From Desulfomonilia bacterium (GTDB lineage: Bacteria; Desulfobacterota; Desulfomonilia; UBA1062): 47,373 nucleotides of DNA. The stretch lies in NCBI GenBank assembly GCA_036567785.1, contig DATCTV010000052.1, positions 1-47,373 on the forward strand, in the 5' to 3' direction. The notes under the pieces are model-generated. The model was not told where the DNA came from, searched no databases, and worked only from the letters and a program-made list of their open reading frames with translations. Made by a program: the position numbers and the translations under genes. Positions 1,293 through 6,561 of the stretch are shown here, piece after piece (position 1 is the first letter of the stretch; every line of letters begins with the position of its first letter).

Positions 1293-2414
1293 TTACAGTC
1301 CGCTCAGGAACCCCTTTATAATCTCGGTCAGATGTCCGGTGTCCGTCAGGAAGGCATCATGCCCGTGGTCGGTTTCGATCTCGGTATATGATACGCGGAC
1401 ATTGAGCGCTGTAAAGAACTTCACGATGTCGCGTCCCTGCGACGGCGGATAAAGCCAGTCCGAGGAGAAGGTAACGACAAGACCTTTTTTCGAGCCGAGA
1501 TCGGCCACCCTTCCTCTTTCCCTGTTTTCTCCGCGTGTACGGTTCGGGCCTGAAAGCGATGTTATAAGGTCGAAGTTGTCTACCGCGTTCGTAATGTAGA
1601 GGTAGCTGTTCGCATCGAAGCGCTTGACGAATGATATGCCCTGATAATCAAGATAGTGCTCTATCTCGAATGACGGTTTAAATACGTTTTTTATGTTAGC
1701 GGTTTTTTTCGAGCGGCCGAACTTTTCCTGCATCATCCGCTCTGAGAGATATGTGATATGGCCGATCATTCTCGCTACAGAAAGCCCGGCCTCAGGTGAC
1801 ACCTCACCGTAATAGTTGCCTTCGTTCCAGCGGGGGTCGGACATGATCGCACGTCTGCCGACCTCGTTGAACGCTATCTGCTGCGCAGAGTGCTTGAGCG
1901 CGGTTGCGATTGCCATGAAGGAATCGGTCATGCCGGTATAATCACCGAAAAGCTGAAGGGCCTGCATGCCGCCCATGGAGCCTCCCACAACACTCACAAG
2001 ATGCTTGATGCCCAGGCGGGAAAGCAGTTCCCTCTGCACCTCCGCCATATCGCGTATCGAGATCACGGGAAAGCTCAGCCCCCAGGCCCTTCCTGTTTCC
2101 GGGTTTATCGAAGAGGGTCCGGTCGTTCCCTTGCAGCCGCCTATAACATTGGAGCAAACGACGAAGTATTTGTCAGTGTCGAATGCCTTGCCCGGGCCGA
2201 TCATCAGGTCCCACCAGCCGGGTTTTTTATCGCCTTCATGGAAAAATGCGGCATGGGCGTCTCCTGAGAGTGCATGCTCGATTAGAATTGCATTATCACC
2301 TGAAGGGTTCAATTTTCCGTAGGTTTCATATGCAATGTCGATTTCAGGCAGGATCGCCCCTGATTCAAGCGCAAAAGGCCTGTTCACCTTTATGATTTTT
2401 GTCTCCACAATCAT
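1293..2414 (-). CDS. metX: Homoserine O-acetyltransferase
   Basis: Transfers an acyl group from acetyl-CoA (some family members use succinyl-CoA) to homoserine, opening the sulfhydrylation route to methionine. It is a 373-residue alpha/beta-hydrolase. The nucleophile elbow VVGGSMGGMQAL places the catalytic serine at Ser146, and the catalytic histidine lies in DHGHDAFL near the C-terminus. Start and stop signatures match the MetX family, with IAYETYGKL and ALSGDAHAA near the N-terminus. The start overlaps the metW stop by four bases (ATGA), so the two are translationally coupled, as metX and metW often are in proteobacteria. Acetyl versus succinyl specificity cannot be settled by eye. Confidence 0.94.
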   Translation of the reverse strand: MIVETKIIKVNRPFALESGAILPEIDIAYETYGKLNPSGDNAILIEHALSGDAHAAFFHEGDKKPGWWDLMIGPGKAFDTDKYFVVCSNVIGGCKGTTGPSSINPETGRAWGLSFPVISIRDMAEVQRELLSRLGIKHLVSVVGGSMGGMQALQLFGDYTGMTDSFMAIATALKHSAQQIAFNEVGRRAIMSDPRWNEGNYYGEVSPEAGLSVARMIGHITYLSERMMQEKFGRSKKTANIKNVFKPSFEIEHYLDYQGISFVKRFDANSYLYITNAVDNFDLITSLSGPNRTRGENRERGRVADLGSKKGLVVTFSSDWLYPPSQGRDIVKFFTALNVRVSYTEIETDHGHDAFLTDTGHLTEIIKGFLSGL

Positions 2415-3010
2415 GTTCGCCTCAGCTTATAAAGCCCGCCTTTTACGATGAGGTCGGGTACAGGCGGTTTTTTGGAGGCTACACGGCCCAGAGGCATAAA
2501 GTATCTTGCTTCTTCAATCATGATTCCCATTTCATTAAGCAGATTCTCGAATTCTGTAACCGTAAAGAACCTGATAACCGGACTGTCATGCCATGACCCT
2601 TCAGAACGTATGTCGGCACTGATCCAGCCCCTTGAAAGTACATGAAGCCTGTTTAAAATATAGCCGAAATTATGTACGGAAATGATTGCGTGAAGCCCGA
2701 CCCTGAGCATCTCATCAATAACCCTGTGAGGTTTGTGGATTTCCTGCAGGGTTTCATTCAGTATCACGTATTCAAAACTCATGTCATCGAGGTTCGAAAT
2801 ACCCTCGTCTATGTCGGCCTGATAAACACAGATGCCCTTCTTGAGGCATTCGATTATCTTGTCCTCGGAGATTTCAACACCCACGGTATAGGCGTTTTTG
2901 GCTGCAGCCAGTTTTTTGAGAAGGCTTCCGTCCCCGCAGCCCAGATCAAGCACCCTTGCCCCGGGTTTGATCCATTGCTCGATGATCTTATGATTAAGCT
3001 CAGTCGTCAT
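2411..3010 (-). CDS. metW: Methionine biosynthesis protein MetW (SAM-dependent methyltransferase fold)
   Basis: A 199-residue class I methyltransferase-fold protein with the SAM-binding motif I VLDLGCGDGSLLKKL near residues 19-33. The later segment YVILNETLQEIHKP is typical of MetW. MetW is genetically linked to MetX in many proteobacteria and is needed for, or enhances, homoserine acylation there. No methylation substrate is established. It is the upstream gene of the metW-metX pair. No good ribosome binding site precedes its ATG; the sequence just upstream is the T-rich tail of a hairpin terminator. Expression therefore depends on the short region between 3011 and 3210. Confidence 0.9.
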   Translation of the reverse strand: MTTELNHKIIEQWIKPGARVLDLGCGDGSLLKKLAAAKNAYTVGVEISEDKIIECLKKGICVYQADIDEGISNLDDMSFEYVILNETLQEIHKPHRVIDEMLRVGLHAIISVHNFGYILNRLHVLSRGWISADIRSEGSWHDSPVIRFFTVTEFENLLNEMGIMIEEARYFMPLGRVASKKPPVPDLIVKGGLYKLRRT

Positions 3011-3210: not shown

Positions 3211-3438
3211 CTAAACCGATTCCACCGCCTTAACTCCGGGCACATCCTGCTTAACTATCTTCTCAATCATGTTTTTGAGCGTGAGAGTTGCCATCGGGCA
3301 TCCGCCGCATGCGCCCTGAAGCTTAACCTTTACGGTCCCGTCGTCGGTCACGTCGATAAGCTGTACGTCACCGCCGTCGCCTCTCAGATATGTCCTTGTC
3401 TTATCAAGCGCCTTTTCAACTTCTTCTTTTGTCACCAT
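3211..3438 (-). CDS. NifU C-terminal-domain Fe-S scaffold/carrier protein
   Basis: A 75-residue protein made only of the NifU C-terminal domain, which in the family binds a transient [4Fe-4S] cluster and delivers it to apo-proteins. The conserved RGDGGDVQLIDV segment comes first (residues 19-30), then the ligand motif GACGGCPMATLTLKNMIE with the CxxC pair. A good ribosome binding site (GGGAGGAAAAATT) precedes the ATG. It stands alone between the serine acetyltransferase and the repeat upstream of metW. The free-standing form is common in anaerobes. Confidence 0.92.
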   Translation of the reverse strand: MVTKEEVEKALDKTRTYLRGDGGDVQLIDVTDDGTVKVKLQGACGGCPMATLTLKNMIEKIVKQDVPGVKAVESV

Positions 3439-3520: not shown

Positions 3521-4453
3521 TTAAATTCCGTCCCCGTCCGCGAAGCTGAATTCTCTCAATCCGTTCTGCATTATCCTGCTGCCCGGCGCTATACTGTGCG
3601 TGAGCCAGACATTACCGCCAATTTCAGAACCTTTTCCTATTGTGACTCTGCCAAGGATTGTAGCGCCCGCGTATATCACCACATCATCCTCTACGACAGG
3701 ATGGCGCGGTATTCCCTTCATCGGATTCCCGTCGGCATCGAGAGGGAAGCTTTTTGCGCCGAGCGTCACGCCCTGATAGATACGGACATTCTTGCCTATC
3801 ACCGTTGTCTCTCCCATGACAACGCCGGTGCCGTGGTCGATAAAGAAATATTCGCCGATCGTTGCCCCGGGGTGGATGTCTATGCCTGTCTCAGAATGGG
3901 CCATTTCAGTGATAATCCGCGGGATCAAAGGCACTTCAAGAAGATGGAGCTCATGTGCGATCCTGTAATTGGTGATGGCCTTGATGCTGGGATAACAGTA
4001 GATAGTTTCACCATGGCTCTTGGCGGCGGGGTCGCCGTCGTAGGCCGCGCATACGTCGGTGGACAGCAAAGCCCTTATATGAGGCAGCTTTTTAAGAAAG
4101 TCCGTTGTCAGGCGGCTCGCCCTCTCAAGACATTTGGTATCGCATACATCCCTGTCGAACTCGCAGGAGAAGCAGAATCCCCTCTTGATCTGTTCGAGAA
4201 GGTTCCTTGCCACAGTGTCGAGCGTCGAACCCACATAATACGACATGGTCTTTATGGAAAATTCCGACTTGCCGAAATAGCCAGGGAAAAGTATCGAGCG
4301 CATGTCTTCGACTATGCTGTGCAGGATTTCCACCGACGGCATGGGTATGTGATGCGAACTCCTGTGCGAGACTACTTCGTATGATTCGGGCGCGCTCAGT
4401 TCGCCTACGACCTGGGTAATAATTTCCTGGATGTCTGCTTTGATTTTTCTCAT
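3521..4453 (-). CDS. cysE: Serine O-acetyltransferase (EpsC-type CysE)
   Basis: Acetylates L-serine with acetyl-CoA to make O-acetylserine, the precursor of cysteine. The 310-residue protein has a helical N-terminal half and a left-handed beta-helix C-terminal half. Active-site segments are GIDIHPGATIG (His194) and FIDHGTGVVMGET (Asp206, His207), followed by hexapeptide repeats such as VVIYAGATILGRVTIG. This is the longer subtype, with an extended N-terminal domain rather than the E. coli form. The N-terminal half carries a cysteine cluster C-x2-C-x6-C-x3-C at Cys94, 97, 104 and 108, which could bind Zn or an Fe-S cluster. It lies 50 bases downstream of the Sec-peroxiredoxin on the same strand and may be co-transcribed with it, which would link cysteine supply and peroxide defence. 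Confidence 0.92.
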   Translation of the reverse strand: MRKIKADIQEIITQVVGELSAPESYEVVSHRSSHHIPMPSVEILHSIVEDMRSILFPGYFGKSEFSIKTMSYYVGSTLDTVARNLLEQIKRGFCFSCEFDRDVCDTKCLERASRLTTDFLKKLPHIRALLSTDVCAAYDGDPAAKSHGETIYCYPSIKAITNYRIAHELHLLEVPLIPRIITEMAHSETGIDIHPGATIGEYFFIDHGTGVVMGETTVIGKNVRIYQGVTLGAKSFPLDADGNPMKGIPRHPVVEDDVVIYAGATILGRVTIGKGSEIGGNVWLTHSIAPGSRIMQNGLREFSFADGDGI

Positions 4454-4503: not shown

Positions 4504-4962
4504 TTATTTATCCAGTGCCTTTAAAGCGAGCGGTACCGTATCTTCAGGCGTGATTTTGTATGATGCACCCAAGATGACGCCTTTTTCGTCGATCATTACA
4601 ACCGAGCGTATAATTCCTGAGACCTCTTTGCCGTACATCATCTTTTTGCCGAATGCACCGTATGCGCTTGCTACGGACTTGTCCGGGTCCGAGAGCAGGG
4701 TGAAATTGAGGCTATATTTTTCGTCGAACTTTTTAAGGGTTTCGGGTTTGTCCGGGCTTATCCCCACAGCTTCTATTCCTCTCTGTTTCAGCTCCTCAAG
4801 AGCGTCCCTGACCGAGACGGCCTGCCTTGTTCAGCCCGATGTGAGCGCCTTGCCGTAGAAATAGACGAGGACTTTTTTACCGGAGAAATCCTTGAGACTG
4901 ACTGTTTTGCCGTTCTGATCTGTCAACTTGAACATAGGGGCCGCATCGCCTTTTTTCAGCAT
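4504..4962 (-). CDS. Selenocysteine-containing peroxiredoxin (Bcp/PrxQ-like), Sec at codon 44
   Basis: Reduces peroxides with thiol donors in the cytoplasm. Reading 152 codons from the ATG at 4962, which has an AGGAGG ribosome binding site 6 bases upstream, gives one continuous peroxiredoxin interrupted by a single in-frame TGA at 4833-4831. Upstream is GKKVLVYFYGKALTSG; downstream is TRQAVSVRDALEEL, then GIEAVGISPDKPETLKKF and TLLSDPDKSVASAYG. The TGA falls exactly where the Bcp family has its peroxidatic cysteine (T-P-G-C-T is T-S-G-U-T here). A SECIS-like hairpin follows directly. The protein has no cysteine, and the Bcp resolving position (U+5) is valine, so it would act as a 1-Sec enzyme needing an external thiol. 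A plain pseudogene is less likely because the rest is intact. Automated callers would start it at the ATG at 4767 and lose the active site. Confidence 0.88.
4799..4823 (-). promoter_or_regulatory. Bacterial SECIS-like hairpin in the peroxiredoxin reading frame
   Basis: Counting from the base after the TGA, GUCUC (13-17) pairs with GGGAC (23-27) around the loop GGUCA (18-22). A C-G pair extends the stem and, past one C/C mismatch, so do G-U, G-C and A-U. Bacterial SECIS elements sit inside the ORF with the apical loop about 16-37 nt after UGA and G residues at the start of the loop; the E. coli fdhF loop also contains GGUC. Both criteria are met. SelB binding is inferred. Confidence 0.75.
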
Positions 4963-5115
4963 AATCAACCTCCTGAAGAGTTTATAATGTCTATTTCGTT
5001 ATTTTGATGAAATAATATTAGCTGATTTTCTTGATTCACCGTTCACCATGAGGCATACTGCTTAACAGCAGCGTTTAATCACGCTCTTTTGAAATATATT
5101 GAGGGGGGTTATTTT

Positions 5116-6561
5116 ATGAAGCGTTTCTTTTTATTGATGGTACCTCTGGTTTTTATCTCAGCTGCATGCGTTCCCGCGGACCTGCCTGATAAGGTTTATT
5201 TCAAGGGCAATGCCGAAAGCATGAACAGCAGGTACTATGCGGCTGTAAGAAACGGCAATATCTGGGTCAGGCCCAATGTCGAGAGGACCGGCGTAAAAGG
5301 AAAATGGCAGATGCTTGATAATCTGCCTGCGGGACTTGCCGGTCAGGTAACCGAAATCGCCATGGACGACGAACATATAGTCGCACTCAACAAAGAGCGC
5401 CAGATCTATACGATGTGGAACGCTCTCGATGAGGTTTCGAAATTCAGGTGGCAGAAGGCCTGGGGCATGCCCTTCTGGAACGGGCCGGGCATGAAGCTCA
5501 GGCGTGATCTTGTTAAGTGGGATTTCTCGGTGGTATCAATTCCCGAAGACGGCTACTGGACTGACCCGGCAGGAAACCTCAAAAAGGTGGGCGCGGCCAA
5601 GTGCTCGCACATCATCATGCTTAATGAGGGCGGGCAGGGCATAACGTTCAACGACCCGTGGCTGCCTCGCGACTACAGCTATGGGGTAGGGACACCATTC
5701 AAGGGCAGGTTCGTATCCGTGAACCTTAGTTCCAGCGGCTCGACCCATTTCATCATCAACAGATACGGCGATATGTTCACGCGGATGTTCGACTTCGACA
5801 TCTCAGGGCTCGATCAGTTTTTTGTCTATTCCTACGAAGACCGCCGCGGCATTCCGGGCAATCCCGATTCCATATTCCAGGTCGTGCAGCTTCCGGCCGA
5901 AGATTGGCTCAAGCAGCCGAAAATCATAACAACAGGCAGGGCGTCGATTACGGACCGCATCAGCATACAGAAAATCGGAAAGAACTGCATACACAGGACA
6001 CTTCGTGTCGAGGGCACGGATGAAAACGGAAATACCGGCTTTTATGAAAAGGACATAAGGGAGGCAGGAAGTGCATCCTGGAGGTTTCATAAGACCGGTG
6101 GAAAACTGAAGGGCAACATCCTGGAAAACAAACCCTATGACAGTTCAGCGGAAACGCTCGGGTCAGGCGATGATCTGGCTTACTCGATGAAGGCTGAAGG
6201 CTTTACTGCCATTATTCCTGATTTCAACTGCTACAATCCGCCTGCGACGCTTAATATAAAACTTTCAGAAGGAGGCAGTATAAGCCTGCCGCTTCACTAC
6301 CGGGAAACCATAAGGCTCAGCCGGCGCGCAGCCGGCATCGACTACGAGCCGAGGCTTTTTCTGGGCGCGATAGAGGCGCCGCAGGCGTTCATAGATTCGC
6401 TTAAAAATGCGCCGGAAGAGGTAAAGGCCTTTGCTGGGAAATATCTCGAAACTGATGGCAGCCGTTTCACCGAGATACGCATTACGGCAACACTCGATTC
6501 ACTTGAAATCAAAGGTTCCGGGATTGACTGGAGTTTTACTGGAAACGAAAGCGTTAATTGA
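5116..6561 (+). CDS. Lipoprotein of unknown function, 481 residues
   Basis: I do not recognise the family. The ATG at 5116 is preferred over an in-frame TTG at 5089 because GAGGGGGG lies 7 bases upstream of it. It yields a lipoprotein signal peptide, MKRFFLLMVPLVFISAAC, with the lipobox cysteine at residue 18. The mature part is rich in Trp, Tyr and Gly and contains blade-like stretches such as YYAAVRNGNIWVRPN and HIVALNKERQIYTMWNAL. These suggest a beta-propeller of the tectonin/sialidase general type for the first ~280 residues, followed by a beta-sandwich-like C-terminal part. No catalytic motif stands out. It converges on the carboxylesterase lipoprotein gene and has no obvious operon partner. 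Confidence 0.75.
   Translation: MKRFFLLMVPLVFISAACVPADLPDKVYFKGNAESMNSRYYAAVRNGNIWVRPNVERTGVKGKWQMLDNLPAGLAGQVTEIAMDDEHIVALNKERQIYTMWNALDEVSKFRWQKAWGMPFWNGPGMKLRRDLVKWDFSVVSIPEDGYWTDPAGNLKKVGAAKCSHIIMLNEGGQGITFNDPWLPRDYSYGVGTPFKGRFVSVNLSSSGSTHFIINRYGDMFTRMFDFDISGLDQFFVYSYEDRRGIPGNPDSIFQVVQLPAEDWLKQPKIITTGRASITDRISIQKIGKNCIHRTLRVEGTDENGNTGFYEKDIREAGSASWRFHKTGGKLKGNILENKPYDSSAETLGSGDDLAYSMKAEGFTAIIPDFNCYNPPATLNIKLSEGGSISLPLHYRETIRLSRRAAGIDYEPRLFLGAIEAPQAFIDSLKNAPEEVKAFAGKYLETDGSRFTEIRITATLDSLEIKGSGIDWSFTGNESVN

Follow-up and report, generated by a model that had tools for sequence, protein, structure and literature searches.

We find that the minus-strand gene at positions 4504 to 4962 of the window (the whole 47,373-nucleotide stretch of Desulfomonilia bacterium DNA analyzed here) very probably encodes a Bcp/PrxQ peroxiredoxin in which an in-frame UGA would be read through as selenocysteine (Sec) at residue 44, giving an enzyme with a peroxidatic selenol and an external thiol as its reductant. 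The gene is a further member of the already known Sec peroxiredoxin family and is not new in kind. The features on which this reading rests are the following:

4504..4962, minus strand: Bcp/PrxQ-type peroxiredoxin, 152 codons, predicted to contain Sec through UGA readthrough at codon 44
4969..4974, minus strand: AGGAGG, resembling a Shine-Dalgarno sequence, with 6 nt between it and the ATG
4831..4833, minus strand: TGA codon 44 at the peroxidatic Cys position (T41-S-G-U44), a column with Cys or Sec in 19/19 rows of alignment A1
4606..4608, minus strand: codon of Arg119, an invariant column in alignment A1

In the window sequence, the frame from 4962 to 4504 gives 152 residues, ends in a TAA stop, and contains a single in-frame TGA; no second disruption was found in the 152 codons. 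An earlier note had claimed one TGA at 4833-4831 in an otherwise complete Bcp/PrxQ frame with a ribosome binding site upstream of the ATG, and both points hold, with the coordinates exact and AGGAGG 6 nt away. The same note had expected an ordinary gene call to start at 4767. Under table 11, with ORFs of 80 aa or more listed, the sole ORF in the peroxiredoxin frame is indeed 4504-4767, with a GTG start and 87 codons. Since only this ORF is listed in the frame, the active site would be lost to an ordinary gene caller. The code of the window is not globally reassigned, because TGA serves as the ordinary stop in 15 of 28 ORFs picked from the window, mostly by size.

Homology continues on both sides of the TGA, as had been proposed from the sequence. 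Compared with the Cys-containing relative L011 (genome G008, 64% identical to the window protein), 24 of 43 residues are identical N-terminal of the TGA and 73 of 107 C-terminal of it. The corresponding dN/dS values are approximately 0.23 (0.346/1.50) before the TGA and 0.15 (0.263/1.70) after it; against four other relatives, dS is saturated (seven of eight pairs without a value, the eighth at 2.5). The sequence comparison thus indicates that purifying selection acts on both sides of the TGA.

With C substituted for U, the window protein scores 124.8 bits against Pfam AhpC-TSA (cut-off 26) and 162.9 bits against NCBIfam PRK09437, the thioredoxin-dependent thiol peroxidase model (cut-off 140). 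The 19-row alignment A1 shows no variation at T41, position 44 (Cys or Sec), or R119, and residue 44 is therefore the peroxidatic position. The check suggested in the earlier note, an alignment of the 152-residue translation to Bcp/PrxQ proteins, consequently gives the expected outcome: the PRK09437 cut-off is passed, residue 44 falls on the catalytic column, and the TGA sits on the active-site Cys codon. We take Arg119 to be the peroxiredoxin active-site Arg and assume catalytic roles for both Thr41 and Arg119. The AlphaFold2 model of the protein has a mean pLDDT of 96.2, and its best fold matches in the PDB are mostly Bcp/PrxQ proteins.

The window protein shares with the Bcp/PrxQ thiol peroxidases (PRK09437; PDB 3drn, 5enu, Xanthomonas PrxQ) its length, its fold (TMq 0.83-0.93 for the 14 leading PDB matches), and the invariant Thr and Arg, but it would carry Sec in place of the catalytic Cys and has no resolving Cys at +5. 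Because this resolving Cys is absent, the 2-Cys cycle is impossible for the window protein. The 1-Cys peroxiredoxin AhpE (PDB 1xxu and others) also has a common fold with it (TMq 0.79-0.84), although the similarity is lower than for Bcp/PrxQ and AhpE has Cys, not Sec. AhpE has one redox residue and depends on an external reductant, the same logic that would apply to the window protein. Membership in PrxU was considered as well and rejected: NF040737, whose name we take to denote the Sec peroxiredoxin PrxU, belongs to the same peroxiredoxin superfamily, but the window protein scores 37.4 bits where 270 are required and thus lies outside that model.

The window's genome (G000) is 97% complete. 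A search of it for the Sec machinery, which the earlier note had set beforehand as a refuting test, recovered all components: selA (500 bits), selB (359 bits), selD (378 bits), and a tRNA-Sec with a full-length Rfam match of 66.5 bits (cut-off 47). The anticodon of this tRNA-Sec is TCA according to ARAGORN, i.e., UCA, and its discriminator is G73 before CCA. For tRNA-Sec and for selB alike, a single match exceeds the cut-off in this genome.

Two other frames of the same genome contain a TGA. The selD gene (L048, G000:C27) has one in-frame TGA in GAG-U-ACK, presumably the usual Sec site of SelD, and SelD is thus likely a selenoprotein. A second AhpC/TSA-family frame (L161, G000:C4:11400-13000, minus strand) has a TGA in FF-U-PFC and is a candidate UxxC-type Prx-like selenoprotein. 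Given this second Prx-like TGA frame, the Sec machinery may serve several genes.

Among relatives, both forms of the enzyme occur. The 16 nearest full-length homologues listed (L010-L025), 51-68% identical to the window protein, all have TGC or TGT at codon 44. Cys is also what the top three relatives by score, L010-L012, have at the catalytic codon, a point against the Sec reading. Of 395 genomes across the phylum, 63 yield a match at E <= 1e-30; a single TGA occurs in nine of these 63 matches, the window included. This TGA is at the catalytic codon in all nine, and also in L027, which comes from the nearest-homologue listing and is absent from the 63 phylum matches. Our 49-row table contains 10 Sec rows (TGA, from 10 genomes, the window included) and 39 Cys rows (TGC/TGT), a Sec share that is inflated by selection relative to the 9/63 among phylum matches. 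Specifically, all 30 located phylum matches are in the table, and of the 33 others, eight were fetched (all three with TGA and five without). Outside the table are 25 further phylum matches, all without stops; 11 loci (L028-L038) that are partial or belong to more distant subfamilies; and many weaker homologue matches without loci, several of those listed with one TGA. One locus, L154 (G197), matches from residue 33 onward only, and the start assigned to it is not homologous. In a more distant subfamily, the PrxQ-like frame L033 (G015) has a TGA at SRY-U-T.

The maximum-likelihood tree requires six Sec/Cys changes, of which at least five are forced by well-supported branches. Therefore, Sec and Cys have been repeatedly exchanged; in family f71, for example, two Sec rows stand alongside three Cys rows. 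A tRNA-Sec over the cut-off is present in 9/9 other Sec-form genomes, and selB at E <= 1e-60 in 8/9, the exception being G151, which is 76% complete. Among the Cys-form genomes, selB is found in 20 of 21 (not G018) and tRNA-Sec at E <= 1e-8 in 19 of 21 (not G008 and G017). Since most Cys-form genomes have selB and tRNA-Sec, Sec at the peroxiredoxin gene is not predicted by the machinery alone. Altogether, the machinery, the Cys homologues at codon 44, and the nine other TGA relatives support the earlier proposal that Sec stands in place of the peroxidatic Cys.

The window protein also lacks residues that are common in its relatives:

4816..4818, minus strand: codon of Val49, in the position of the resolving Cys of PrxQ, from the 49-row comparison
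4852..4854, minus strand: codon of Gly37 at the proline place of the PxxxTxxU/C motif, Pro in 47/49 rows

The protein has zero Cys, with Val49 at the resolving-Cys place (U44+5). The resolving Cys is absent in 10/10 Sec rows compared with 11/39 Cys rows (Fisher p 4e-5), and in 7/80 named-genome loci among the matches listed, which have Cys at the catalytic codon by construction. A general rule linking Sec to loss of the resolving Cys was dropped, because in a tree-aware test the loss needs only two changes and the independent-pairs comparison, with few contrasts, is not significant (median p 0.5); we keep the association as an observation. The motif proline is missing only in the window gene (row L009, Gly) and in L011 (Ala) among the 49 rows, Gly occurring in the window gene only. 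It is present in 80/80 named loci among the matches listed, with a search pattern that allowed P or G, and the proline of PxxxTxxU is described as highly conserved in a review (PMC13188914). The window protein thus has the TxxU motif and departs from the fuller PxxxTxxC/U motif at Gly37, a departure that also counts against the Sec reading.

A candidate recoding signal lies just downstream of the TGA:

4803..4819, minus strand: candidate bacterial SECIS hairpin CGUCUC-GGUCA-GGGACG, 6 bp, 12-28 nt after the UGA

A bacterial SECIS is a hairpin that closely follows the UGA and has G as the first loop nucleotide. The candidate is uninterrupted and has an energy of -7.2 kcal/mol; the first two loop nucleotides are GG, and the loop starts 18 nt downstream of the UGA. 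Under a strict hairpin definition, devised after a lenient score had failed, the mean energy is -6.6 kcal/mol in the 10 Sec rows vs -2.4 kcal/mol in the 39 Cys rows (p 2e-4, kinship ignored), and the Sec rows also differ from the 11 Cys rows without resolving Cys (p 0.016, kinship again ignored). The separation is not complete: the Sec rows L153 and L155 have weak hairpins (-2.2), and the Cys rows L149 and L142 strong ones (-13.3 and -9.7). By the lenient G-loop hairpin score, Sec rows did not differ from Cys rows (p 0.40), whole-segment folding of the window region was unremarkable (MFE z -0.04), and 8.3% of 5000 synonymous recodings equaled the hairpin energy of the window gene. An Rfam scan of the hairpin region with E up to 10 returned four matches, all below gathering scores. 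With this mixed evidence, we regard it as plausible that the hairpin acts as a SECIS.

The same 17-nt hairpin is found, identical at 17/17 positions, in L011, which has TGC at the catalytic codon. It lies inside a run of 25 nt identical between L011 and the window gene, starting 5 nt past the codon (codon-permutation p 0.013), in which synonymous choices are the same at 7/8 sites vs 43/87 elsewhere (one-sided Fisher p 0.04); this region was noticed before testing, and the statistics are weak. In the tree, the window gene and L011 group with L131, which keeps the proline, with support of 99/94 and an internal order that is not settled. It is conceivable, and we propose it tentatively, that the common ancestor of the window protein and L011 used Sec and was by then without the motif proline and the resolving Cys; the window gene would have kept Sec, and L011 would have reverted from Sec to Cys and retained a fossil SECIS. 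The hairpin identity may reflect such a Sec ancestor, and it may equally reflect a hairpin older than Sec. For peroxiredoxin, the table of a 2006 survey records five changes from Cys to Sec and none from Sec to Cys (PMC1794560), and a 2026 review describes the Sec-to-Cys direction as rare (PMC13188914). We also considered whether the TGC of L011 could be decoded as Sec. This idea is unsupported, as the best tRNA-Sec match of G008, and the only one over the cut-off (48.2 bits, cut-off 47), is a tRNA-Trp according to ARAGORN; selB is present in G008, and with the genome at 86% completeness a tRNA-Sec may have been missed.

The close likeness to L011 also bears on whether the TGA is genuine. A sequencing or assembly error, with TGC as the true codon and an ordinary Cys peroxiredoxin as the product, would need one substitution, and L011, whose DNA near the codon is almost identical, has TGC. 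Such an error, however, would have to strike the codon at which nine other rows of 49 also have TGA, in a genome with the full Sec machinery, and we consider it very unlikely. We give hardly any weight to a pseudogene or regulated truncation, in which translation would stop at codon 44 or start internally at 4767 and give an 87-aa product that misses the active site. The table 11 ORF 4504-4767 that this requires does exist, but the fragment would be without the catalytic residue. In the full gene, the 152 codons are otherwise undisrupted, dN/dS is low N-terminal and C-terminal of the TGA, the upstream ATG has a ribosome binding site, and the predicted fold is complete (mean pLDDT 96.2).

A further alternative keeps the readthrough and changes the amino acid: a selC*-type tRNA-Cys(UCA), with a second SelB, would insert Cys at the UGA. 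Relatives do have an additional selB that lies near a tRNA-Sec-like gene, but the sole tRNA-Sec over the cut-off in the window's genome has G73, not U73, and a single selB passes the cut-off there; we judge this alternative extremely improbable. Readthrough with Sec at position 44 is the reading we retain. As for the relatives themselves, a second selB with an adjoining or near tRNA-Sec-like gene was observed at L162-L165 (G169, G222, G028, and G245) and also in G198, G345, G362, and G038. The four tRNA-Sec-like genes read (L162-L165) all have T73, with the anticodon GCA (Cys) in three and TCA in one. These pairs fit the known selC* tRNA-Cys/selB* pairs, and selC* tRNA-Cys(UCA)/selB* pairs are described in Syntrophobacterales and Desulfobacterales and in some deltaproteobacteria (PMC7609411). 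Their occurrence in the relatives hints that the window's genome may belong to the former Deltaproteobacteria.

Downstream of the peroxiredoxin gene on the same strand are sulfur-related genes:

3521..4453, minus strand: serine O-acetyltransferase (EpsC/CysE-like), 50 nt past the peroxiredoxin stop; NCBIfam EPS_EpsC 150.1 bits, cut-off 150
3211..3438, minus strand: NifU-like domain protein, 75 aa, between the serine acetyltransferase and metW
2411-3010, minus strand: MetW; Pfam 168.9 bits (cut-off 21), NCBIfam 179.3, below 189.5
1293-2414, minus strand: MetX; PRK00175 480.1 bits, cut-off 331

The serine O-acetyltransferase reaches 158.2 bits with the cysE model, under its cut-off of 210.65, and the NifU-like gene is absent from the 80-aa ORF list. 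A conserved adjacency to cysteine/methionine genes was not borne out in the relatives: tblastn at E <= 1e-5, covering flanks of 1-1.5 kb or to the contig end, found no match to the serine acetyltransferase, MetW, MetX, PanC, or the upstream 5089-6561 protein near L010-L038 and L131-L160.

We propose that SelB would bring Sec-tRNA(UCA) to the hairpin just past the UGA, so that Sec would enter at position 44. The selenolate would then attack the peroxide to give a selenenic acid, which would be reduced by an external thiol, either thioredoxin or a low-molecular-weight thiol. An external thiol would have to reduce the enzyme, because a Cys-free protein cannot form an internal bridge.

The founding report on a Sec peroxiredoxin reportedly concerned Eubacterium acidaminophilum. 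That Sec peroxiredoxins are already known from anaerobes, as the earlier note had stated, agrees with the literature: the table of a review lists "Peroxiredoxin (Prx), COG1225 (Bcp), TxxU" as a selenoprotein family (PMC9312934), and several anaerobes with Sec peroxiredoxins are named in PMC1794560. An example with the TxxU motif is WP_011365628.1. In addition, a table in PMC13188914 gives the family under PF00578, and 43 Sec COG1225 genes are counted in the Sargasso Sea (PMC1088965). With this family, compared here by its table entry, the window protein has in common the COG1225 assignment, the TxxU motif, the predicted peroxidatic Sec, and a Sec-decoding host; it is set apart by Gly37 and by having no Cys at all. 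We found no report of a Cys-free, proline-less Sec peroxiredoxin in the open-licence literature, by titles and abstract beginnings.

The finding corrects a gene that standard annotation would truncate at the active site, and it provides a further Sec/Cys pair with which the retention of Sec in bacteria can be studied. With a TGC relative that has the same hairpin, the direction of Sec/Cys exchange becomes testable. Finally, a Cys-free peroxiredoxin would offer a simple system, in which recycling of the single selenol has to come from a reductant outside the protein.
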